Of a DNA stretch of 64,000 nt, positions 3,273 to 62,009 are shown one piece after another. How positions within the stretch are numbered: position 1 is the stretch's first letter; each line of letters begins with the position of its first letter. A program made the position numbers and the translations under genes. Source of the stretch: Marixanthomonas spongiae (GTDB lineage: Bacteria; Bacteroidota; Bacteroidia; Flavobacteriales; Flavobacteriaceae). The DNA is taken from the NCBI RefSeq assembly GCF_003095375.1, contig NZ_QEHR01000003.1, forward strand, positions 62,001-126,000, read 5' to 3'. Below the pieces are notes generated by a model. That model was given only the letters and a program-made list of their open reading frames with translations. It did no database searches and was not told the DNA's origin.

Positions 3273-3811
3273 TAAGTGCTTTTTAGTTTATGGGAATAGT
3301 ATTTTTTTAATTTATCGATCTTAGGGTTAATAATATATTGGCAATAGGGTTGCTGGGTGTTTTGATTATAATAATCGTGATGGTCTATTTCGGCTTTATA
3401 AAAAGCGTCCAACGGCTTCACCTCGGTCACGATGGGGTTGTCAAACACCTCTTTTTCGGTGAGCAAGGTAATGAAATCTTCAGTTATTTGCTTTTGTTCT
3501 TCCGAAGTATAAAATATTGCGCTTCGGTACTGGGTGCCTACATCGTTTGCTTGCCTGTTCAATGTTGTGGGGTCATGGGTGGCGAAAAATATTTCTAGCA
3601 AAGTTTCCATGGTTACTTTGTTTGGGTCGTAGGTTATTTCAACGGCTTCGGCATGCCCGGTGCGGCCAGTTATTACCTCCCGATAGGCCGGGTTTTTAAT
3701 GGTACCGCCAGCAAATCCGGGAATTACGCTCTCTACGCCTTCAATACGTTGAAAAACGGCTTCGGTACACCAAAAACAACCTCCGGCAAATACAATTTTA
3801 TGGTCGTTCAT
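3272..3811 (-). CDS. msrA: Peptide-methionine (S)-S-oxide reductase
   Basis: A 179-residue repair enzyme that reduces the S epimer of methionine sulfoxide in proteins. The active-site block [11 protein letters not shown] carries the catalytic Cys12 near the N-terminus. The family motifs [12 protein letters not shown] and [12 protein letters not shown] are present. No signal peptide is seen, so it is cytosolic. It is the upstream member of an msrA-folE pair joined by a TAATG overlap. Two msrB genes sit much farther along, at 55244-56120, so the two stereospecific halves of the system are not linked here. Confidence 0.95.
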
Positions 3812-3997
3812 TAAAAATGTTTTTCTATTACTATAATTAAATGCTTTTTTCTTGAAACTGCAAAGTACAAAAGTCCTTAAGTTACTCCGTGTTTGTTTAA
3901 CAAATATTTAATTTCTTAGAACAAAACTATTTAGTTGAAAAAGTTTTATTGTGTTTCTCTAAGCAAAACAGTACTTTCACGGTTTTAATGAACAGTC

Positions 3998-4657
3998 ATG
4001 ATTTTAGCTGAAAACTTACACAAATACTATGACGACCTTCACGTGCTTAAAGGTGTTGACCTTCACATAAAGCAAGGGGAGATTGTATCGATAGTGGGGG
4101 CGTCTGGGGCCGGGAAAACCACTTTGCTCCAAATATTGGGCACGCTCGATAATTCAGAAAAAAACGAGGGAAAACTGAATATCAATGGCATTGACATTAA
4201 AACACTGAAACGAAAGGAGTTGGCAAAGTTCCGAAACAAGAATCTGGGATTTATTTTTCAGTTTCATCAATTACTTCCAGAATTTACGGCCTTGGAAAAC
4301 GTGTGCATTCCAGCTTTTATCAATAAAACGCCAAAGCCAAAAGCCGAAAAAAGAGCTAAAGAACTCCTTTCCTTTCTGGGACTGTCGCATCGGGAAGACC
4401 ACAAACCCAACGAACTTTCAGGCGGTGAGCAACAACGTGTGGCCGTTGCGCGCGCCTTGATCAATAAACCGGCCATCATCCTTGCCGATGAGCCCAGCGG
4501 CAACCTGGACACCGAAAGTGCCGAAAACCTGCACAACCTGTTCTTTAAGCTCCGGGATGAATTTGGGCAAACATTCGTAATCGTTACGCATAACGAAGAG
4601 CTGGCCGAAATGGCCGACCGCATGCTTGAAATGCAGGACGGAAAAATATTGCGATAA
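3998..4657 (+). CDS. lolD: LolD-type ABC transporter ATPase
   Basis: A 219-residue ABC ATP-binding subunit. Walker A is GASGAGKTT (residues 34-42), the signature motif is [15 protein letters not shown], Walker B is [12 protein letters not shown] and the H-loop is VIVTHNEE. The short length and N-terminus ([11 protein letters not shown]) fit the LolD/MacB class, whose members power lipoprotein release from the inner membrane or other MacB-like exporters. No permease gene lies beside it, so the partner must be encoded elsewhere. The next gene starts three bases after the stop, which points to one operon with the TIGR02757 gene. Confidence 0.85.
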
Positions 4658-4660
4658 TCA

Positions 4661-5449
4661 ATGCGAAGGGCAGAATTAAAACGGTTTCTCGACGAAAAAG
4701 CTGCGTATTACAACCAGCCGTTGTTCATTGAAAGCGACCCCATTCAAATACCCCACCAATTTTCAAGAAAAGAAGACATTGAAATAGCTGGGTTTTTAAT
4801 GGCAACCATCGCTTGGGGCAACCGGAAAAGTATTATAAACAATGGAAAAAAATTGATGCAGTTAATGGGGAACTCCCCTTACGACTATATTGTAAATTTT
4901 TCAGAAGCCATGCATGCCGACAGGCAAAATAAACAGGCCGAATTGCTTTCCAGTTTTGTGCATCGCACTTTTAACGGCGATGATTTGGTGTATTTTATAA
5001 AAGCACTTCAACATATCTACCTGCACCACGGTGGATTAGAAGCCGTTTTTGCCGCTTTTTCAGAAGAAGACACCCTGCAGCCGGCCATTCATCATTTTAA
5101 GAAGCTCTTTTTCAGCCTGCCCCATTTAAAACGTACCGAAAAACACGTGAGCGACCCGTTAAAGGGTTCGGCAGCAAAACGCATCAATATGTTTTTAAGG
5201 TGGATGGTGCGCAACGACAACACGGGCGTTGATTTTGGTATATGGAACAGCCTTTCCCCTTCTCAACTCTCCTGCCCTTTGGACGTGCACAGCGGACGGG
5301 TGGCCAGAAGCCTGTCGCTGCTAAAACGCAAACAAAACGATGCCAAAGCGGTAACCGAACTCGATGCTGCCCTAAAGCGATTGGACCCCAACGATCCGGT
5401 AAAATACGACTTTGCCCTTTTTGGCCTTGGGGTTTTCGAGGCTTTTTAA
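4661..5449 (+). CDS. TIGR02757 family protein (DUF2400)
   Basis: A 262-residue protein matching the TIGR02757/DUF2400 family by its conserved blocks: IPHQFSRKEDIEIAGFLMAT near the N-terminus, KGSAAKRINMFLRWMVR in the middle, and CPLDVHSGRVARSLSLL followed by DPVKYDFALFGLGV at the end. The helix-rich fold, with a PLDVH motif and the Leu/Arg-rich helix after it, resembles HhH-GPD DNA glycosylases, but no catalytic function is established. There is no signal peptide. It follows lolD by three bases. Confidence 0.8.
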   Translation: MRRAELKRFLDEKAAYYNQPLFIESDPIQIPHQFSRKEDIEIAGFLMATIAWGNRKSIINNGKKLMQLMGNSPYDYIVNFSEAMHADRQNKQAELLSSFVHRTFNGDDLVYFIKALQHIYLHHGGLEAVFAAFSEEDTLQPAIHHFKKLFFSLPHLKRTEKHVSDPLKGSAAKRINMFLRWMVRNDNTGVDFGIWNSLSPSQLSCPLDVHSGRVARSLSLLKRKQNDAKAVTELDAALKRLDPNDPVKYDFALFGLGVFEAF

Positions 5450-5524
5450 AATTTATACCTTCTTAATTCATTAGTAGAATTCTAAATGAAATTTAGTAAC
5501 TTTACAACATAACAAAAAACAAAA

Positions 5525-5556
5525 CGGGGTTTACCCCATAGGAGGAATTACTATTG
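5525..5556 (+). promoter_or_regulatory. Hairpin plus Shine-Dalgarno before a TTG start
   Basis: GGGG (5526-5529) and CCCC (5534-5537) can form a short hairpin with a TTTA loop. Three bases later comes a full GGAGGA (5541-5546), seven bases before the TTG start of the kinase at 5554. The frame is closed by TAG at 5539-5541, so TTG is the first start available. A canonical Shine-Dalgarno is rare in this window and decides this start. Confidence 0.6.
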
Positions 5557-6756
5557 ATTACACCAGCCATTCCGGCCAACGAGCAGGAACGACTATCAGC
5601 GTTGAGGTCTTATCAAATGTTGGACACGCTTCCAGAAAAAGACTTTGACAACATTACTGCTTTAACAGCAAGCATTTGCGATACGCCCATATCCCTCATT
5701 ACCCTGATGGATACAAATCGCAATTTCCTAAAATCGCACCATGGCGTTGACTTACAGGAATCGCCAAGGGACAGTTCCTTTTGCGGACACGCCATTGTTG
5801 ACAATTCAGAAATATTTATCGTAGAAGACACCTTAAAGGACGAACGGTTTAAAGACAACCCCATCGTTAAAGAGCAACACATCCGCTTTTACGCGGGCGT
5901 TACCCTTTTCAGCCCAGATGGTTATGCTTTGGGCACCCTTTGTGTGTTCGATACCAAACCAAGGAAGCTGGACCAGAAACAGACAAACGCCTTAAAAGCG
6001 TTGGGATCACAAGTAGTAAACCTGCTGGAAGAACGAAAAAGGAATATCGCCTTGCAAGAACTGCAAAAAGAATTGCAGGAAAACAACGAACGGTTAAAAA
6101 ACTTTGCGGGTATCATTTCGCACGACATGAAAATGCCTTTGGCGAACATGATCGTTACTTCTGATATTTTAAAGAAAAAATACGGAAAAAACCTCGACGA
6201 ACAGGGCCTTGAATATTTAGACTACCTAAAACAATCGTCTTTCACTTTAAGCGAATACGTTACCGGGCTATTGGAACATTACGAAAGTGAAAAAACCTCC
6301 CAACAATCGTACGAAGAGTTTGACACCCACCATCTTTTTGAAGAAATCGTGGAGCTGTTGAACATTAGCGTGGATTGTGAAATAAACCTCCCTGAAAACA
6401 ACCTTGAAGTCTCTTGTAACAAAACAGCCTTAGAGCAAATATTGATCAACCTTATTGGCAATTCCTTAAAATACAACGATAAGGACAAAATTGTTATCGA
6501 TATTGATTGTAAAAAAGAAAATGGAATGCTTTTCATTACCATCGTAGATAATGGCGTGGGCATCGAAAAAGAAAAACTAAACGAAATCTTCGAGCTTTTT
6601 ACCACCCTTGGTACCTTAGACAGAAACGGCCAAAAAGGAAACGGCATTGGGCTATCCACGGTTAAAAAACTGGTCAACAAGCTTGAAGGCGATATCTCTG
6701 TTTCTTCCGAAGTGGGACAAGGCACAACTTTTGAGTTTTCTATTGCATGCCAGTAA
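5554..6756 (+). CDS. GAF-domain sensor histidine kinase (first of a pair)
   Basis: A 400-residue kinase starting at TTG with a strong Shine-Dalgarno. An N-terminal GAF domain (about residues 20-160) opens with the family pattern ERLSALRSYQMLDTLPEKDF and contains SSFCGHAI and YALGTLCVFD. A short coiled-coil linker follows (LEERKRNIALQELQKELQ). The HisKA phosphoacceptor is His190 in ISHDMKMPLAN. The ATPase carries the N box (NLIGNSLKYND), G1 (DNGVGIEKE) and G2 (GNGIGLST). There are no membrane segments, so it senses a cytosolic or small diffusible signal. No response regulator is encoded nearby. It is a paralogue of the next gene. Confidence 0.9.
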   Translation: MITPAIPANEQERLSALRSYQMLDTLPEKDFDNITALTASICDTPISLITLMDTNRNFLKSHHGVDLQESPRDSSFCGHAIVDNSEIFIVEDTLKDERFKDNPIVKEQHIRFYAGVTLFSPDGYALGTLCVFDTKPRKLDQKQTNALKALGSQVVNLLEERKRNIALQELQKELQENNERLKNFAGIISHDMKMPLANMIVTSDILKKKYGKNLDEQGLEYLDYLKQSSFTLSEYVTGLLEHYESEKTSQQSYEEFDTHHLFEEIVELLNISVDCEINLPENNLEVSCNKTALEQILINLIGNSLKYNDKDKIVIDIDCKKENGMLFITIVDNGVGIEKEKLNEIFELFTTLGTLDRNGQKGNGIGLSTVKKLVNKLEGDISVSSEVGQGTTFEFSIACQ

Positions 6757-46357: not shown

Positions 46358-48808
46358 CTACAACTTCTTAGCGTTCTTTACTTTTTGCTTGGTAAGCGCT
46401 AAATTCAATACATCGCTCATATCTTTTACATAATGAAATTTCAGGCCTTTTAGGTATTCTGGTTTAATTTCATCGATATCGCGCTTGTTATCTTCGCATA
46501 ACAAGATTTCCTTAATGTGCGCCCGTTTGGCAGCCAATATTTTTTCCTTTATTCCGCCAACGGGAAGCACTTTACCGCGCAAGGTAATTTCCCCAGTCAT
46601 CGCAATGCTCTTCTTTACCTTGCGTTGGGTGAACAACGAAACCAGAGAGGTTAACATTGTAATCCCCGCACTTGGACCGTCTTTGGGGGTTGCCCCTTCC
46701 GGTACGTGCACGTGGACGTTATATTTTTCAAAAATATCTGGCGAAATGCCCAGTTCTTCGGCGTTGGATTTTATGTATTCCAAGGCAATGGTGGCCGATT
46801 CTTTCATGACCTTCCCTAAGTTTCCGGTCATGTTCAACTGGCCTTTACCTTTGGAAAGCGTCGATTCTATAAACAAAATATCGCCTCCCACTTTGGTCCA
46901 AGCCAATCCGGTAACCACCCCGGCCACATCGTTGTTTTCATATTTATTGCGTTCCAGTTTTGGGCTGCCCAAAGCTTCGATCACGGTATCATGGGTTACT
47001 TTTTTCTCATATTCTTCTTCCATGGCGATTTTCATCGCAGCATAACGCACCATTTTTGCAATTTGCTTTTCGAGGCCTCTTACGCCACTTTCACGGGTGT
47101 AGCCTTCCACGATTTTCTCTAATTGCTTTTTGTCAATTTTAAGGTCGTTTTTGGTCAGGCCATGTTCCTCCAATTGTTTTGGCAGTAGGTGGCGTTTTGC
47201 AATTTCCACTTTCTCTTCAACGGTATAACCGGTAACGTTAATAATTTCCATGCGGTCACGAAGCGCAGGCTGAATGGTGCTCAAGGAGTTTGAAGTGGCA
47301 ATGAACATGACTTTTGAAAGATCGTACCCCAGCTCCAAAAAGTTATCGTAAAACGCGTTGTTCTGTTCAGGGTCCAGCACTTCCAGCATAGCCGAAGACG
47401 GGTCGCCCTGGCTCCCAACCGAAAGTTTATCTATTTCATCCAATACAAAAACCGGGTTGCTGGTTCCTGCTTTTTTTATGTTTTTTACAATACGTCCCGG
47501 CATCGCACCAATATAGGTTTTACGATGTCCACGTATTTCGGCTTCATCACGTAAACCGCCCAGCGACATCCGTACGTATTCGCGGCCCAGGGCTTCGGCA
47601 ATGGATTTGCCCAAGGAAGTCTTACCCACACCTGGAGGGCCGTACAGGCAAAGAATGGGCGATTTCATATCGTTGCGCAGTTTCAGTACAGCTAAATATT
47701 CAATAATTCGTTTTTTAACATCGTCTAAGCCGTAATGGTCGCGATCCAATATTTTCCTTGCCCTTTTCAAGTCGAATTTATCGGTGCTGAATTCGTTCCA
47801 CGGCAGCTCGAGCAACAAATCCAAATAATTGGTCTGAATGCTATATTCGGCCACTTGCGGGTTCATGCGCTGCAACTTGTTGATTTCCTTTTCAAAATGC
47901 TCCTGCACCTCGTCGCCCCACTTTTTTTCTTCCGCTTTTTTGCGCATTTCCTGTATTTCGGCTTCATTGGAATTTCCGCCCAACTCTTCCTGAATAGTCT
48001 TCATTTGCTGTTGCAGGAAATATTCGCGCTGCTGCTGATTGATATCGCTTTGCACCTTAGACTGGATATCATTGCGCAACGACAATTTTTGCAATTCAAC
48101 GTTCATGTGCTTCAAAGTCTGCAGGGCACGCTCTTTCAGGTCGTTTATCTCTAACAGGCTTTGTTTTTCTTTTACTGAAATGTTCAGGTTTGAAGAAACA
48201 AAGTTGATCAAAAACGAGTTGCTTTCAATGTTTTTGATGGCAAAGGCCGCTTCCGAAGGGATGTTTGGACTGCCTTTAATGATTTCAAGGGCTATTTCCT
48301 TGATGGAATCGATAATGGCAGAAAACTCTTCGTTTTCATCGGCAGGTTTTGCTTCACTCACTTCCCTTATGGTGGCGGTGAGGTACGGTTCGGTCGTGAT
48401 TACTTCGGTGGTTTCAAAGCGTTTTTTACCCTGTATGATTACGGTGGTGTTGCCATCGGGCATTTTCAATACCCGAAGTATTTTGGCCACCGTACCAATG
48501 GTGTTGATTTCGTTTAACCCGGGATCTTCCACTTCTTCGTCTTTTTGTGAAACCACACCAATGGTCTTGCTGCCTTTGTTGGTTTCGTTGATGAGTTTAA
48601 TGGATTTATCGCGACCTGCGGTAATGGGAACCACCACGCCTGGAAACAAAACGGTGTTGCGTAGCGGGAGGATAGGTAGTATTTCCGGCAGTTCTTCCCG
48701 GTTCATCGCATCTTCATCCTCGGCGGTCATTAAAGGGATCAACTCGGCGTCTTGCTCTAATTCCTGCAATGACAAACTGTCTAATGTTTTTACTTTTGAA
48801 TGGGCCAT
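46358..48808 (-). CDS. lon: ATP-dependent Lon protease
   Basis: An 816-residue AAA+ protease. An N-terminal LON substrate-binding domain begins [21 protein letters not shown] long coiled-coil segment ([20 protein letters not shown]) leads to the ATPase with Walker A GPPGVGKT (Lys about residue 396) and Walker [12 protein letters not shown]. The peptidase dyad is Ser about residue 713 in DGPSAGITM, with Lys in [15 protein letters not shown]. It degrades misfolded and regulatory proteins in the cytosol. A 453-base gap precedes it, shared with the divergent ECF sigma gene. Confidence 0.95.
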
Positions 48809-49261
48809 ATAGTATTTTAAGACATTGTGTCACCAAAAAAGGCGCACAATTGCTGTTTTTTAATGATTCGTTATCTACTTTAAACTGAAAACCAATTGCA
48901 TAGCTTAATGCTTATTGACTTTCACTCATTTCTATTCAATAGTTATGCCAAGGAAAGTTTATGTTTTTCTGATGTATTTCAATTACCAAGAAAATTTTTG
49001 ATTGAATGAATACAAATCTATTTGGTGAAATTTTCCTACAAAATATAATTTTTCTTACAAAACAATGAACTATCTATGGAGTATCTATGAAGCATCTATA
49101 GCTTTACTATGGTTACTTTAAATCTACCACCATGTTTTTTCAACTCCTATTTAATGATACCCCTTACTCGTTTGAAAAAGATATTTTCAGAATTGTAATA
49201 TATATTTTTTCATCACAACTGTAACATTTTGAAACAAACATTATCTTTAGTATAAACAAGC
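48809..49261. other. Long intergenic region with direct repeats
   Basis: The 453 bases between divergent lon and the ECF sigma gene hold no gene. Two imperfect 12-base repeats, TTTCCTACAAAA (49032-49043) and TTTCTTACAAAA (49051-49062), are followed by three 11-base units at 49071-49103 (TATCTATGGAG, TATCTATGAAG, CATCTATAGCT). A TATCTTTA at 49242-49249 may be a -7 box for the sigma gene. GACA-TTG-TGTC at 48821-48831 lies just before lon. Confidence 0.6.
49032..49103. repeat. Phased direct repeats upstream of the ECF operon
   Basis: Two 12-base repeats with one mismatch, 19 bases apart, and three head-to-tail 11-base repeats. The 11-base period is close to one helical turn, which suits protein binding on one face of the DNA. 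Confidence 0.55.
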
Positions 49262-49819
49262 TTGTTTTTGACATTGACCGACCAACATATTGACTCATTA
49301 TTGGAGCACTGTAAAAAAGGAAACCAATTGGCGCAGTTAGAAGTGTATAATCGCTATCAACGGGCTATGTATAATGTTGCCGTACGGATTGTAAAAGATA
49401 CCGCAGAAGCCGAAGATATCATGCAAGAATCTTTTATAAGTGCCTTCAATAAGCTGGACACGTTTAAAGGTACGGCCACTTTTGGATCTTGGTTAAAGCG
49501 TATTGTGGTCAATAATAGTATTTCACAATACAAAAAGCAACAGCGTTTCATTGACATACCGGATGAAACCATTGCCGAGACTATTGAAGAGGCCTCCGGA
49601 ATACCTGAAGAAGATTACACTACCGATAAAGCGGCTTCTATACTGAGTTGTATGGAAACTTTGCACCGCACGTATCATCAAATTTTAACACTTCATTTAA
49701 TTGAAGGCTATGATTATGAAGAGATATGTGAAATTTTAGACATCAGTTATGCCAATTGTAGAACATTAATGTCACGAGCGAAAGAAAGTTTACGAAAAAA
49801 ATTAAAAATAGCGTCATGA
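49262..49819 (+). CDS. ECF-type RNA polymerase sigma factor
   Basis: A 185-residue extracytoplasmic-function sigma factor. Region 2 has YNRYQRAMYNVAVRIVKDTA, EAEDIMQESFISAFNKLDTF and GSWLKRIVVNNSI; region 4 has the helix-turn-helix LHLIEGYDYEEICEILDISY, ANCRTLMSRAKESLRKKL. There is no ATG before residue 37, so it must start at a TTG (49262, 49268 or 49274); TAA at 49253-49255 closes the frame upstream. It overlaps the next gene by four bases (ATGA), as sigma/anti-sigma pairs often do. Confidence 0.9.
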   Translation: MFLTLTDQHIDSLLEHCKKGNQLAQLEVYNRYQRAMYNVAVRIVKDTAEAEDIMQESFISAFNKLDTFKGTATFGSWLKRIVVNNSISQYKKQQRFIDIPDETIAETIEEASGIPEEDYTTDKAASILSCMETLHRTYHQILTLHLIEGYDYEEICEILDISYANCRTLMSRAKESLRKKLKIAS

Positions 49820-50382
49820 AGAAAGATGAACTAGACACTTTATTTGAGCAAAACCGTACACGTTTTGACGTGCACGACACACCACAAGGTCATCAAAAAC
49901 GGTTTTTGACCAAATTACAAGCGCAGGCTGAAGGACATAAAGAAGCATTAAAAGAGAAGCGCAGATCAACGAAATGGTGGAAACCCTTGAGCATTGCCGC
50001 AACCGTTGCTGTTTTACTGGCCATCGGATTTTTATTTCAGAGCACAGAAGCTAAAGCCCAGGATCTTGCCAGTGTATCGCCAGAAATGCAACGCACCCAA
50101 TCTTTCTTTACAGCAACCATCAATAAAGAGTTAAAAACCTTAAAAAGTTTAGAAAGTCCTGAAGCAAAAACACTTGTAGAAGATGCCTTAGCACAAATTG
50201 ACATCCTTGAACGAGAATATGAAGGACTTAAAAAAGATCTTGTAGAAAGCGGAAATGACAAACGGGTAATTTATGCAATGATCACCAACTTTCAAAATCG
50301 AATTGATCTGTTACAAAACGTTATCAACACCATCGAAGAAATTAAAACACTTAAAGCAAATAAAAATGAAACCACTATCTAA
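49816..50382 (+). CDS. Membrane protein, likely anti-sigma factor
   Basis: A 188-residue protein with one central transmembrane helix (LSIAATVAVLLAIGFLF, about residues 55-71). The cytosolic N-terminus (MKKDELDTLFEQNRTRFDVH) is helical and could hold the sigma factor. The extracytoplasmic part is a helical, heptad-rich region (DALAQIDILEREYEGLKKDL). No zinc-binding HxxxCxxC motif of classic anti-sigma domains is present, so the function is inferred from topology and the ATGA overlap with the sigma gene. It overlaps the next gene by 17 bases. Confidence 0.65.
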   Translation: MKKDELDTLFEQNRTRFDVHDTPQGHQKRFLTKLQAQAEGHKEALKEKRRSTKWWKPLSIAATVAVLLAIGFLFQSTEAKAQDLASVSPEMQRTQSFFTATINKELKTLKSLESPEAKTLVEDALAQIDILEREYEGLKKDLVESGNDKRVIYAMITNFQNRIDLLQNVINTIEEIKTLKANKNETTI

Positions 50383-51451
50383 AACACTACTCGTGCTTTT
50401 CCTTATTCCGGCCGTAGCGATGGCCACACCGGAAAAGATGAAAGGAAAATACACCAAAGAGAAAACAATTAAAAAAGAATTTAACGTCAATTCCGGTACC
50501 GGTTTGCAGGTAAAAAATAGTTATGGAAACTTAGATATCGTAACTTGGGATGAAAACCGAACCGTCATAGAAGTCACGATAAAAACCAATGGCGATAACG
50601 AAGAAAAAGTTATAGCACGTCTTAGCGAAATTGATGTTGAATTTAACGCTAGTTCATCCCTAGTTTCTGCCGAAACAACATTTGAAAATAAAAAATCCGG
50701 TTGGAGCTGGTGGGGAAGCAGTAAAAATAACGTTTCCGTAGAAGTTAATTATTCCATTAAACTACCTATTACCAATACCGTAGACTTAAACAACGATTAT
50801 GGCACCATTCGCATGAATAAATTGAAGGGACACGCTACGATAAATTGTGATTATGGACAGTTGATTATTGGTGAATTGCTAGCAGAAAACAACTACCTTA
50901 CCTTTGATTATACCGATAAATCCACCATCGGATATATGAAAAGTGGCCGAATCAACGCCGATTATTCAGGGTTTACCTTAGAAAAAACTGAGCGATTAGA
51001 ATTAAATGCAGATTACACCCAATCTGAAATTATAGATGGAAAAAGCATTAACTACAATTGTGATTATGGAAAGGTAATCATTGGTAAAGCCGAAGACGTT
51101 ATCGGTCGCGGTGATTATGTAAACAACAAAATAGGCACCATTACTGGTTCCCTCAATTTAAATACCGATTATGGCTCAATTAATATTGATAACGTAAGTT
51201 TCCAGGCCAAAAATGTTACCATCAAGGCAGATTATACCGGTGTAAAAATGGGCTTTGACAGTAGTTATAATTTCGATTTTGTAATAGATTTATCCTACGC
51301 CAGTTTTAAAGGCGAACAAGAAGTGACCATTTTAAAGTCTTCTAAAGATTACACCAGCAGCAAGTATAGCGGATTTCACGGTAAACAAAACTCTGGGAAT
51401 ACGGTTAACATTAATTCAGATTACGGCGGCGTAACCTTTTATAAAAACTAA
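50366..51451 (+). CDS. Secreted protein with repeated DYG motifs (DUF4097-like)
   Basis: A 361-residue protein from the ATG at 50366, which opens a signal peptide (LLVLFLIPAVAMA). The mature chain is a long array of short beta strands, like DUF4097/adhesin-type beta-helices, punctuated by an [N/K/F]-x-DY-[G/T/S] motif: NNDYGT, NCDYGQ, FDYTDK, NADYSG, NADYTQ, NCDYGK, NTDYGS, KADYTG and NSDYGG. A predicted solenoid with a repeated acid-aromatic turn follows from this. It is third in the sigma-factor operon; its role is unknown. Confidence 0.75.
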   Translation: MKPLSKTLLVLFLIPAVAMATPEKMKGKYTKEKTIKKEFNVNSGTGLQVKNSYGNLDIVTWDENRTVIEVTIKTNGDNEEKVIARLSEIDVEFNASSSLVSAETTFENKKSGWSWWGSSKNNVSVEVNYSIKLPITNTVDLNNDYGTIRMNKLKGHATINCDYGQLIIGELLAENNYLTFDYTDKSTIGYMKSGRINADYSGFTLEKTERLELNADYTQSEIIDGKSINYNCDYGKVIIGKAEDVIGRGDYVNNKIGTITGSLNLNTDYGSINIDNVSFQAKNVTIKADYTGVKMGFDSSYNFDFVIDLSYASFKGEQEVTILKSSKDYTSSKYSGFHGKQNSGNTVNINSDYGGVTFYKN

Positions 51452-51464
51452 AACCTATATACCA

Positions 51465-52196
51465 ATGAAAACACTAACAAGATGTATTCTCACAGCTTTT
51501 ATAGCGTTAACGGTGCAGCAAGCTGTAGCACAAAACTGGAACGCTTCAAAAATCAAAGGAAATGGCCATGCAACTACTGAAACCGTTTCAACAAGCGACT
51601 ATGATCACATTCACGTGACCGGTTCTATGGATGTAACCTTGGTTAACGGTGCTGAAGGATCTATCACTGTCAAAACAGATGAAAACCTTCATGAGCATTT
51701 AGACATCAGCAGTAACGGTACTGTGTTGACTATTTCAGTTAAAAAAGGTATTTCCATTAGAACCAAAAAAGGAATTAACGTTACTGTTCCTTTTGATGAA
51801 ATTTCTGAAGTCACCTTGGTCGGTTCGGGCGATATTACCGCTACTCAAACAATTAAAGCTGATAATTTTGACGCTGGTGTTACCGGCTTCGGTGATATTA
51901 TTTTGAAAGTTGAAACAAATTCCTTGAATGCAAAAGTTACCGGCTCTGGGGATATGACGTTAACCGGCAATACCGATGACTTTGAGTTAAAAATTAGCGG
52001 AAGCGGTGATTTTGACGGAAGAAACTTTGACGCAAACAACACAGAAGTATATGTATCCGGCTCTGGCGACGGTATGGTTTCAGCAAAAAAAAGCATCAAA
52101 GCTCGCGTGAACGGCTCGGGGAATATTTCTTATAAAGGAAACCCTTCTCAAAGTGATACCAAAGTTTTAGGCAGCGGCACGATACAATCTATGTAA
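51465..52196 (+). CDS. Head GIN-domain secreted protein (DUF2807) with GSGD repeats
   Basis: A 243-residue secreted protein (signal peptide ILTAFIALTVQQAVA). It belongs to the head GIN domain (DUF2807) family, putative adhesins with a beta-helix fold. A [V/T/S/N/L]-G-[S/F]-G-[D/N/T] turn recurs: VGSGDI, TGFGDI, TGSGDM, SGSGDF, SGSGDG, NGSGNI and LGSGTI, about once every 16-20 residues. It is last in the sigma-factor operon, 13 bases after the DYG-repeat gene, and a terminator follows. Confidence 0.85.
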   Translation: MKTLTRCILTAFIALTVQQAVAQNWNASKIKGNGHATTETVSTSDYDHIHVTGSMDVTLVNGAEGSITVKTDENLHEHLDISSNGTVLTISVKKGISIRTKKGINVTVPFDEISEVTLVGSGDITATQTIKADNFDAGVTGFGDIILKVETNSLNAKVTGSGDMTLTGNTDDFELKISGSGDFDGRNFDANNTEVYVSGSGDGMVSAKKSIKARVNGSGNISYKGNPSQSDTKVLGSGTIQSM

Positions 52197-52220: not shown

Positions 52221-52269
52221 GCCTAAAAAGTACTATTTCTTCCAAACGCTTTTTAGGCTTCTTTTTTTG
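52221..52269. terminator. Terminator between convergent genes
   Basis: GCCTAAAAAG (52221-52230) and CTTTTTAGGC (52249-52258) are perfect arms followed by TTCTTTTTTT. It ends the sigma-factor operon and overlaps the 3' end of the minus-strand MFS gene. Confidence 0.85.
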
Positions 52270-53590
52270 ACATTCTTTTTTTCTGTGGTACTCTAAAGAG
52301 TAAAAGAAGCCCTATCACAAAAAATAAGATAAAGAACAATACAGCATACCTTATACTGCCCGTTACTTGCGCCACGAACCCGTAACTGAACATCCCGATA
52401 ACAATCCCTATTTTTTCGGCAACATCATAAAAACTGAAATAAGAAGCCGTGTCTATGGCGTTTTCCGGCAGTAATTTTGAATAGGTAGAACGCGAAAGTG
52501 ACTGTATCCCGCCCATGACCAAGCCCACAAATCCTGCGGTGACATAAAATTGCGTTGGGCTTGTTATGGTATAGGCGTACACACAAATGCAAATCCAAAT
52601 CATGTTCAATACAATCAAGGTATTGATGTTTCCAAATCGAGCAGATGCCCTAGAGGTTAAAAAAGCCCCTAAAACCGCTACCAGCTGTATCAATAAAATA
52701 CTGACTATCAATCCCGTGGTGGCATTTGTTTTGCCCCAATCCAGTTCTTCAATACCAAAATAGGTGGCCACCAACATAATGGTCTGTACGGCCATGCTAT
52801 ACACAAAGAAAGCTGCGAGATACCGCTTTAGGCTTCTGTTTTCGCCCAACTTGTGCCAAATTTTCTTTAACTCTTTAAATCCGTTGAAAAGCAGGTGCTT
52901 CGTAAATTTTTGTTTTTTGTTTCCCTTCGGAAGGTAATAATAGGTGTATTGGCTAAACCCGATCCACCAAACCCCAGTCAACACAAAGGACAACCGCGTG
53001 GGGAAATCTTCGTTTTTAAATCCGAAAGTTTCGTGCATCAAGATCATCGCTAAACAAATACACAGCAAAATCACACTACCCACATACCCTAGCGAATACC
53101 CCTTGGCACTTATTCTATCTTGTTGTTCAGGAAAGGCAATATCCGGTAAATAGGAGTTGTAGAATACCAAACTGGCCCAAAAGCCTATCAGTGCCAAAAA
53201 ATAGCACAACAGTCCAAACCATAAATAGTCTAAGGAAAACCAAAACAAGCCAATGCATGAAACAGCACCCAGATAACAGAAAAACTTCAGAAATGCTTTT
53301 TTGTTGCCCACATAATCGGCAATACCGCTCAATAGCGGACTCAAAACCGAAACCATTAAAAAAGCTGCTGCTGTAACATAGCTTATGAGCGTGTCGTTAT
53401 TAAAATCGAAGCCCAAAAACGTAACCGTATCGTCCAGAATGTTTCCGTTATCATCCTTTACCAATGTCAACGCACCATAGAAAATGGGGAAAATGGCCGA
53501 GGAAATCACTAAGTTATACACAGAATTGGCCCAATCGTAAACGGCCCAAGCATACAGGAGTTTCTTGCTCCCCTTTGGTAAGTTGGTCAT
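52253..53590 (-). CDS. UMF1-type MFS transporter
   Basis: A 445-residue major-facilitator protein with 11-12 helices, related to the UMF1/Atg22 group by YAWAVYDWANSVYNLVISSA and DYVGNKKAFLKFFCYLGAVS. Members are thought to export amino acids or sugars, but the substrate here is unknown. I chose the ATG at 53588-53590 over a TTG 45 bases upstream, as the protein begins there with MTNLPKGSKKLLYAWAVYDW. Its stop overlaps the terminator of the sigma operon. Confidence 0.85.
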   Translation of the reverse strand: MTNLPKGSKKLLYAWAVYDWANSVYNLVISSAIFPIFYGALTLVKDDNGNILDDTVTFLGFDFNNDTLISYVTAAAFLMVSVLSPLLSGIADYVGNKKAFLKFFCYLGAVSCIGLFWFSLDYLWFGLLCYFLALIGFWASLVFYNSYLPDIAFPEQQDRISAKGYSLGYVGSVILLCICLAMILMHETFGFKNEDFPTRLSFVLTGVWWIGFSQYTYYYLPKGNKKQKFTKHLLFNGFKELKKIWHKLGENRSLKRYLAAFFVYSMAVQTIMLVATYFGIEELDWGKTNATTGLIVSILLIQLVAVLGAFLTSRASARFGNINTLIVLNMIWICICVYAYTITSPTQFYVTAGFVGLVMGGIQSLSRSTYSKLLPENAIDTASYFSFYDVAEKIGIVIGMFSYGFVAQVTGSIRYAVLFFILFFVIGLLLLFRVPQKKRMSKKEA

Positions 53591-53734
53591 GTTTTTATTT
53601 TTACGAATAAAAATCCCGTCCAGATACCATATCAAGACGGGACTAAAGTACTTTATTTTATTTGTTTTGAAAACAATGGAAGTGTCTAAATGTCTATCCT
53701 ATAAAGATGACAAAACAGAAACAACAGCTCTAAT

Positions 53735-55243: not shown

Positions 55244-55726
55244 ATGAAAAAGATCGTTTTTTTACTGTGCAGTGTGTTGCTGTTAAGCTGCAACTCTAAA
55301 GCACAGGACAAAAAAGAACAAAAAGAGTTCCCCGTTAGCAAAACCGATGCCGAGTGGAAAGCCGAATTGACCGATATGGAATACCAAGTGCTTCGGAAAG
55401 CCGCAACCGAGCCTGCCTTTTCCAGCGAATTGAACAGCAATACCAGAAAAGGAACGTACGTATGTGCCGGTTGTGGAACCCCTTTATACCGAAGCGAAAA
55501 CAAATTTAAAAGCGGCACCGGATGGCCCAGTTTTGACCGGGTTATCGAAGGAAACGTTGCCTTTTCAACCGATAACAAGTTAGGTTATAGCCGAAACGAA
55601 GAACACTGTGCTACCTGTGGCGGCCATTTAGGGCATGTTTTTAATGATGGCCCTAAAGAAACCACCGGAAAAAGGCATTGCATTAACGGTGTTGCCTTAG
55701 ACTTTATACCTGAAAAAGATGAGTAA
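55244..55726 (+). CDS. msrB: Peptide-methionine (R)-S-oxide reductase, exported lipoprotein form
   Basis: A 160-residue MsrB that reduces the R epimer of methionine sulfoxide. It has a lipoprotein signal (VLLLSCNS, Cys16), so it acts outside the cytosol. Zinc is held by CAGC and CATC. The active site is GTGWPSFDRV and the catalytic Cys is in KRHCINGVALDF. It overlaps the second msrB by eight bases. Reducing power would have to be relayed across the membrane; no CcdA/DsbD-type gene is nearby. Confidence 0.9.
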   Translation: MKKIVFLLCSVLLLSCNSKAQDKKEQKEFPVSKTDAEWKAELTDMEYQVLRKAATEPAFSSELNSNTRKGTYVCAGCGTPLYRSENKFKSGTGWPSFDRVIEGNVAFSTDNKLGYSRNEEHCATCGGHLGHVFNDGPKETTGKRHCINGVALDFIPEKDE

Positions 55727-56120
55727 TAAAACCTATCCCATACAAAAAACAGAAGCCGAATGGCGCAAGGAATTAGGCGAGGAAAAATACAGGATTCTTC
55801 GTGAAGCCGGTACCGAACGCCCGCATACCGGTAAGTACAACATCCATTTTGAAGATGGCACCTACAAATGCGGCGCCTGCCACACACCGCTTTTTAAAAG
55901 CGAAAGCAAGTTTGAAAGCAGCTGTGGCTGGCCGTCTTTTGACGAAGCCATTGATGGCGCAGTCGAGTATGTGCGCGATACCTCCCTTGGAATGATCCGT
56001 ACCGAAATTCTATGCGCCAATTGCGGAAGCCATTTAGGTCATGTATTCAACGACGGCCCCACTGAAACAGGGCAACGTTTTTGCGTCAATTCGCTTTCGG
56101 TGGATTTTGAAGAAGAGTAA
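55719..56120 (+). CDS. msrB: Peptide-methionine (R)-S-oxide reductase, cytosolic form
   Basis: A 133-residue MsrB without signal peptide. Zinc ligands are CGAC and CANC, the active-site region is SSCGWPSFDEA and the catalytic Cys is in QRFCVNSLSVDF. The start overlaps the preceding exported copy by eight bases, so the pair is translated together but works in different compartments. A terminator follows. Confidence 0.9.
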   Translation: MSNKTYPIQKTEAEWRKELGEEKYRILREAGTERPHTGKYNIHFEDGTYKCGACHTPLFKSESKFESSCGWPSFDEAIDGAVEYVRDTSLGMIRTEILCANCGSHLGHVFNDGPTETGQRFCVNSLSVDFEEE

Positions 56121-61990: not shown

Positions 61991-62009
61991 TTTAATTTTC
62001 AATCGTTAC

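Follow-up and report, generated by a model that had tools for sequence, protein, structure and literature searches.

A conserved extracytoplasmic function sigma operon in Marixanthomonas spongiae with a predicted membrane anti-sigma factor and secreted Toastrack-fold proteins

The stretch of Marixanthomonas spongiae DNA analysed here (the window; 64,000 nucleotides, positions 62,001 to 126,000 of contig NZ_QEHR01000003.1, assembly GCF_003095375.1) contains a compact run of four genes, sig, asf, tr3 and tr4. They encode an extracytoplasmic function (ECF) sigma factor, a predicted anti-sigma factor and two secreted proteins of the DUF2807/DUF4097, or Toastrack, type. We propose that the four genes constitute an autoregulated ECF sigma/anti-sigma envelope switch that turns on secreted Toastrack proteins, a reading to which we assign a probability of about 0.7. 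Its foundations are the gene order, the promoter motif, the co-occurrence of motif and regulator, and the folds of the products, all of which were established by comparison. A first-pass annotation of this DNA had described an ECF-sigma operon, and the description holds: all four open reading frames are present in the claimed order and strand, the order is conserved, and an ECF-like promoter precedes both the operon and other DUF2807-type genes. The annotated stretch was placed from 49032, which lies 230 bases 5' of sig, but its gene set and order were right. The reading frames of sig and asf overlap by four bases (ATGA) and those of asf and tr3 by 17, and 13 bases separate tr3 from tr4. The elements of the operon are as follows.

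49217-49257, forward strand: predicted ECF promoter, with the -35 element TGTAACA at 49220-49226, a 16-base spacer (N16), the -10 element ATCTTTA at 49243-49249, and then TAAAC
49262-49819, forward strand: sig, ECF sigma factor (Pfam Sigma70_r2, 1.7e-16; r4_2, 3e-14)
49816-50382, forward strand: asf, predicted anti-sigma factor, a single-pass membrane protein of 188 residues
50366-51451, forward strand: tr3, secreted protein of predicted Toastrack fold with a ladder of DY turns; repeat region about 50795-51427
51465-52196, forward strand: tr4, secreted DUF2807 ('head GIN') protein with seven GSGD-like turns at about 51822-52181

The four-gene order, first noted for this DNA alone, is kept far beyond the genus. 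Our locus set consists of 100 distinct loci, comprising the first 31 orthologous loci and the best 80 of 529 named, with repeats removed. The genes follow one another as sig-asf-tr3-tr4 in all 31 of the first loci and in 93 of the full 100; the remainder comprises four loci cut at contig ends (two without tr4, two without sig) and three without tr4. A chance gene cluster was rejected in view of this conserved order. At the level of the genus, asf has a match in six of seven genomes, the missing one being 55% complete; in the family as a whole, 324 of 397 sampled genomes carry asf or a paralogue. Matches to tr3 are present in 18 of 149 genomes of the class, and sig and asf lie just upstream of tr3 in 11/11 further loci (three from the same family, eight from outside it; in L303 the sigma gene is cut by the locus end). 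A tr4-like gene follows downstream in three of these 11, one of them outside the family, within flanks of 1.5 kb. Overlap between the asf and tr3 reading frames recurs in 87 of the 100 distinct loci, tr3 and tr4 never overlap (0/95), and the exact four-base overlap of sig and asf recurs in 34/98. Because tr3 is always accompanied by sig and asf in the further loci, mostly without tr4, and because the asf/tr3 overlap is so widely kept while tr3 and tr4 never overlap, sig-asf-tr3 looks like the core of the system and tr4 like an add-on. In one genus genome (G003, contig C9, locus L306), lon and a promoter-like motif are followed by tr4, with sig, asf and tr3 absent between them; this gap may be an assembly fault, G003 being 55% complete and the contig having Ns elsewhere.

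A second cassette resides in the same genome (L073, contig C5 66000-75500, at 3357-5929), composed of a sigma factor, an asf-like protein and a 474-residue third protein. The latter has no Pfam family over the cut-off and is weakly similar to tr3 (22%, 8e-6), and no DUF2807 match was found in the cassette. Judged by eye, its upstream box reads TGCAACA-N16-GTCTTTT. Three more DUF2807 proteins are encoded in the genome (L085, C5 190000-198000; L084, C1 176000-186000), one after PadR-like and PspC-like genes and two each beside an outer-membrane-like protein, these neighbours being labelled by eye.

Structurally, tr3 and tr4 are characterised by regularly spaced turns. We counted 11 DY[GTSV] turns in tr3, against a maximum of 4 in 5000 shuffles, and seven G[SF]G[DNT] turns in tr4, against a maximum of 2; as both counts exceed those of all 5000 shuffles, the repeats are not due to chance. 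The turns are 17-21 residues apart in 8/10 intervals of tr3 and 18-21 in 6/6 of tr4, and across the tr3 family (74 sequences) the number of DY turns ranges from 2 to 12, with a median of 8. The seven GSGD-like turns reported earlier for tr4 are thus exactly recovered; the acid-aromatic repeat of tr3 is real, but has 11 copies instead of the nine first given. The product of tr4 belongs to Pfam DUF2807 (PF10988, 9.9e-47, over the cut-off) and has direct relatives in the PDB, namely 3jx8, 3lyc and others, one of them in the Legionella Dot/Icm complex. For tr3, no DUF4097 or DUF2807 match and no Pfam family over the cut-off was found among 32 members, the window's included; the only Pfam matches are to SH3_19, in two of the 32 and below the cut-off, and a PDB sequence search returned a single chance match (E 0.25). 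The predicted structure of tr3 is nearly all beta (mean predicted local distance difference test score, pLDDT, 91; predicted template modelling score, pTM, 0.84). Foldseek retrieved 21 matches at E <= 1.3e-3, with 4qrk the best (6e-9) and the others also found by the tr4 profile, although TM-scores stay low, none being above 0.42 by query length. With VIA-align, tr3 superposes on 3lyc with Z 17.4 and a root-mean-square deviation of 2.7 over 220 aligned residues and on 4opw with Z 16.3, while the first chain of another kind reaches Z 10.7; rows for other folds were not used. On the evidence of this model, tr3 is assigned to the Toastrack fold (DUF2807/DUF4097) as a right-handed beta-helix, like 4QRK and 4OPW. 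A profile-profile comparison of tr3 with tr4 matched only the signal peptides, so that the kinship of the two rests on fold. The earlier DUF4097 label for tr3 therefore applies to the fold and not to the Pfam family, and the prediction of beta-helical solenoids agrees with the model for tr3 and with the direct PDB relatives for tr4. The tr3 family thus combines a clear predicted fold with no Pfam entry over the cut-off.

The product of sig matches PF04542 and PF08281 over the cut-off and comprises only regions 2 and 4, which places it among the ECF sigma factors; the sigma part of a relative's model matches chains of sigmaE, AlgU and SigW. Its start is likelier to be the TTG at 49268 (MTLT...) than position 49262, because the former aligns with relatives. 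The TTG start named in the first-pass annotation is widely shared: among 99 distinct sequences (the window included, as in all counts of upstream sequence below), the sigma gene starts with TTG in 90, GTG in 6 and ATG in 3. Our start-calling script picks the first possible start and thereby favours TTG; independently of this, no ATG codon occurs within sigma residues 2-20 in 95/98, and the other three genes begin with ATG in 259/266 counted cases, repeats included. The weak TTG start probably keeps the sigma factor scarce relative to asf.

Upstream of sig, TGTAACA is found in 98/99 sequences, and in 97 a -10-like box follows it after 16 bases. L149 is the exception: there the start of sig was called too far upstream and takes in the motif. 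The consensus AA[C/G]TGTAACA-N16-ATCTTTA extends this arrangement, and TGTAACA-N16-ATCTTTA is the probable ECF promoter of the operon. In the window's genome, the pattern TGTAACA-N13-17-ATCTHTA has one site, at the operon. The five other genomes of the genus that are near-complete also have one site each at the operon, one of them with an extra site of different spacing, and the incomplete G003 has none. A relaxed scan of the genus (a longer pattern, allowing three mismatches) returned 21 sites versus 2 in the reversed control; two sites conserved between genomes fall inside reading frames and were set aside as chance occurrences. A second conserved target is a gene for a 224-residue DUF2807 protein (Pfam 3.4e-43) beside an RNase R-like gene, preceded by the motif in five of the seven genus genomes by the relaxed scan, with a sixth added by the strict scan. 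Two weak sites, each with three mismatches, lie about 50 bases before genes for secreted proteins that by eye resemble a hydrolase (L191, own genome, C14 at about 16100) and a beta-lactamase (L189, G005).

Across 80 genomes of the family, the strict motif occurs at 78 sites in 53 genomes, versus 2 sites in the reversed control. These sites precede the operon (43), the RNase R-linked DUF2807 gene (9), a third DUF2807-type gene (5), and other genes or no clear gene (21); they were classed by position beside known asf or DUF2807 matches, 39 by the downstream gene and one operon site by eye. The third target encodes proteins with YGES-like turns, two of which have the Pfam match, while the other three find tr4 by BLAST at 5e-8 or better. 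The main asf (E below 1e-20) is present in 53/53 genomes with the strict motif and in 10/26 without it (P = 2.5e-10; 79 genomes compared, G401 being left out as it has no asf value); the genomes are related, so that this and the following P values overstate independence. Among the 30 closest homologues of the RNase R-linked gene, 22 have the full motif upstream and 29 have TGTAAC. In further genomes, hand-picked as 20 with and 20 without the main asf (some of the latter carrying a distant asf paralogue), the full motif is present in 8/20 and 0/20, respectively (P = 0.003). The operon's type of promoter may, by this comparison, also drive related secreted DUF2807 proteins elsewhere in the genome. 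In the same upstream regions (L307-L346), a box like GGAATAATTATTGATAATTTTACGTT occurs in 16/20 genomes without the main asf and 7/20 with it, and therefore another regulator may act on the RNase R-linked gene. At six motif sites (L263, L272, L273, L275, L276 and L284), TCT is preceded by G, giving GTCTTTA five times and GTCTCTA once. The genes that follow encode proteins that look like DUF5916, and the GTCTHTA form suggests a related sigma factor with another -10 preference.

The asf protein features a conserved N-terminus (F10, D18, H26, R29 and F30), a transmembrane stretch at about residues 58-76 (49987-50043) by hydropathy, and a C-terminal three-helix domain (block-mean pLDDT 88-95 in a linked model of a relative). 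It has a weak NCBIfam anti-sigma match below the cut-off (3.4e-4), no Pfam family over the cut-off, and no significant relative in a PDB sequence search. The zinc motif HxxxCxxC is found in 0/74 asf sequences, in line with the first-pass annotation, which sets asf apart from the zinc-binding anti-sigma factors (ZAS). By its place beside the sigma gene and its one predicted transmembrane stretch, asf fits the membrane type of ECF anti-sigma factor; we infer that it binds the sigma factor, with a cytosolic N-terminus and a periplasmic three-helix domain. An anti-sigma factor of the Dma/Reo type was rejected for asf, which is too short.

Taken as a working mechanism, asf would at rest hold the sigma factor through its cytosolic N-terminal motif, FDxxxPxGHxxRF, while anchored as a single-pass protein in the inner membrane. 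A signal from the envelope would be read by the periplasmic three-helix domain and lead to release of the sigma factor. Free sigma would then start transcription of its own operon, from TGTAACA-N16-ATCTTTA, and of other DUF2807 genes in genomes that have such promoters before them. As a result, the secreted Toastrack beta-helix proteins would build up, either in the periplasm or at the outer membrane. This proposal takes in the presumed signal, how the sigma factor is set free, which promoters it uses, and where the Toastrack proteins go and what they do; in it, sig-asf-tr3 would form the core and tr4 and the scattered DUF2807 genes the outputs.

In the RpoE-RseA-RseB and AlgU-MucA-MucB systems, a sigma factor, a single-pass anti-sigma factor and a secreted third protein are encoded in order, the same gene order as in sig-asf-tr3. 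The systems differ in the fold of the third protein, and asf has no sequence relative in the PDB. By analogy, tr3 could act in the periplasm as a co-regulator bound to asf, in the way that RseB binds RseA, leaving only the DUF2807 proteins as outputs. We regard this as a serious possibility that falls short of even odds. It gains from the constant place of tr3 after asf in the further loci, few of which have a tr4-like gene within their flanks, from the overlap that asf shares with tr3 and tr3 does not share with tr4, and from the second cassette, which likewise consists of a sigma factor, an asf-like protein and a third protein weakly similar to tr3, with no DUF2807 match. However, the predicted fold of tr3 is that of Toastrack and not the RseB fold, and the genome-wide tr3 search did not return the third protein of the second cassette, so their kinship is weak. 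Membership in the operon would make tr3 an output in any case. Similarly tentative is the wider picture of an ancient sigma, asf and tr3 sensor of the Bacteroidota, with a secreted Toastrack co-sensor and a regulon made up largely of further secreted DUF2807 proteins.

Several observations weigh against the envelope switch as we propose it. The window's own genome does not have the RNase R-linked DUF2807 gene; the 21/78 strict sites before other genes imply that the motif is not exclusive to these targets, or that another sigma factor shares it; and 10 genomes have the main asf without the strict motif, although the strict form itself misses 28/99 known operon promoters. At the second target, 12/20 of the further asf-positive genomes are without the full motif, and TGTAAC alone differs weakly between the two sets (9/20 versus 3/20, P = 0.08). 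For the regulator pair, the linked sigma-asf AlphaFold model, an artificial read-through of the relative's DNA, predicts region 2 of the sigma factor and the three helices of asf with confidence, but its pTM is 0.38 and the N-terminus of asf is weakly predicted. Of the 25 strongest sigma-asf pairs in a coupling analysis (mean-field, on 110 pairs, 11 loci being repeats), 6 fell in the asf N-terminus, where 6.1 were expected by chance.

The promoter results leave some room for another sigma factor, such as that of the second cassette, using these promoters while the operon's own sigma has a different regulon. The similarly built box of the second cassette and the strict sites before other genes speak for such an arrangement, which we nevertheless consider unlikely: the ATCTHTA form occurs at the operon once in each of six near-complete genus genomes, with one extra site of different spacing, and every genome with the strict motif holds the main asf. 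Less likely still, asf might be a membrane effector, with the sigma factor controlled otherwise. The absence of any family over the cut-off, the low pTM and the chance-level coupling are compatible with this, whereas asf adjoins the sigma gene in its own family and as far away as distant families of the class, shares the exact four-base overlap with it in about a third of loci, and has one transmembrane stretch and a conserved N-terminal motif; a diverged sig-asf pair is also present in the second cassette.

Regarding location, the N-termini of tr3 and tr4 were judged by eye to be of the Sec type. A lipobox was found in 1/32 tr4 and 0/74 tr3 sequences, and no sorting-domain family of the type IX secretion system (T9SS) or surface-anchor family was found among their library matches at E up to 1. 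Sec-type N-termini together with the missing surface signal make the periplasm likelier than a surface layer as their place, and a T9SS surface layer was rejected for want of a sorting signal. The solenoid surface layer that the first-pass annotation had proposed as the operon's main output is accordingly very improbable, even though DUF2807 proteins are annotated as adhesins and, according to the parts of PMC10949514 consulted, loss of PGN_1547 lowers attachment and biofilm in P. gingivalis: neither surface-export nor anchor signals were seen in the library matches.

ECF sigma/anti-sigma regulators of the envelope are known in Bacteroidota, and the present operon would be of this kind, with Toastrack products. 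In the sections of PMC11237479 consulted, the Toastrack domain is defined as the fold group of DUF4097, DUF2807 and DUF2154 and tied to envelope stress; an operonically linked sigma factor appears there in another context, and sigma-type regulators in a figure legend. The PSP/Lia Toastrack proteins of those sections share the fold group with tr3 and tr4, but are argued to be intracellular and go with PspC/LiaF-type domains, whereas tr3 and tr4 have secretion-type N-termini and accompany an ECF sigma factor and asf. No PspA, PspC or LiaF-type domain was found in the four products, which places the operon outside the PSP/Lia systems. From the parts of PMC13114119 consulted, CirY/CirZ of Phocaeicola vulgatus resemble the present operon in combining an ECF sigma factor and an anti-sigma factor with a co-transcribed Spy-like periplasmic protein; there the effector is a Spy-like chaperone in place of Toastrack proteins, the regulators being set side by side by description. 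Dma1/Dma2 and EcfO-Reo of Bacteroidales (PMC13088901, PMC9308784, in part) likewise pair an ECF sigma factor with a membrane anti-sigma factor in envelope stress or vesiculation. Their anti-sigma factors span both membranes, in contrast to the 188 residues and short helical C-terminal domain of asf. The SM6 promoters of F. psychrophilum, as given in the portion of PMC9723704 consulted, are also flavobacterial and of ECF type, and one precedes a sigma/anti-sigma pair; they carry a CGT box at -10 and serve several T9SS genes, whereas ATCTTTA occupies the -10 position here, with DUF2807-type genes as the main targets. The consulted part of PMC12045153 contains nothing on the operon. No description of the operon or its promoter was found in the literature searched, to which supplements and most subscription journals did not belong, and one may be in print.

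For the poorly understood DUF2807/Toastrack proteins, a dedicated sigma factor, a promoter and candidate targets provide a direct handle that makes their role testable. Given the spread of asf and its paralogues over the sampled genomes of the family, the system may serve a large bacterial group as a general response of the envelope.

The four-gene unit is flanked by porQ, lon, an MFS-like (major facilitator superfamily) gene and an M48-type peptidase gene, and its immediate neighbours lie outside the operon.

46358-48808, reverse strand: lon, divergent neighbour (NCBIfam TIGR00763)
52253-53635, reverse strand: MFS-like transporter, convergent neighbour, labelled by eye; no NCBIfam name at 1e-10

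Among the 100 distinct loci, some of them truncated, lon adjoins 86 and the MFS-like gene 76. Further downstream in the window, at 55244-56120, two adjoining genes resemble, by eye, methionine sulfoxide reductase B.

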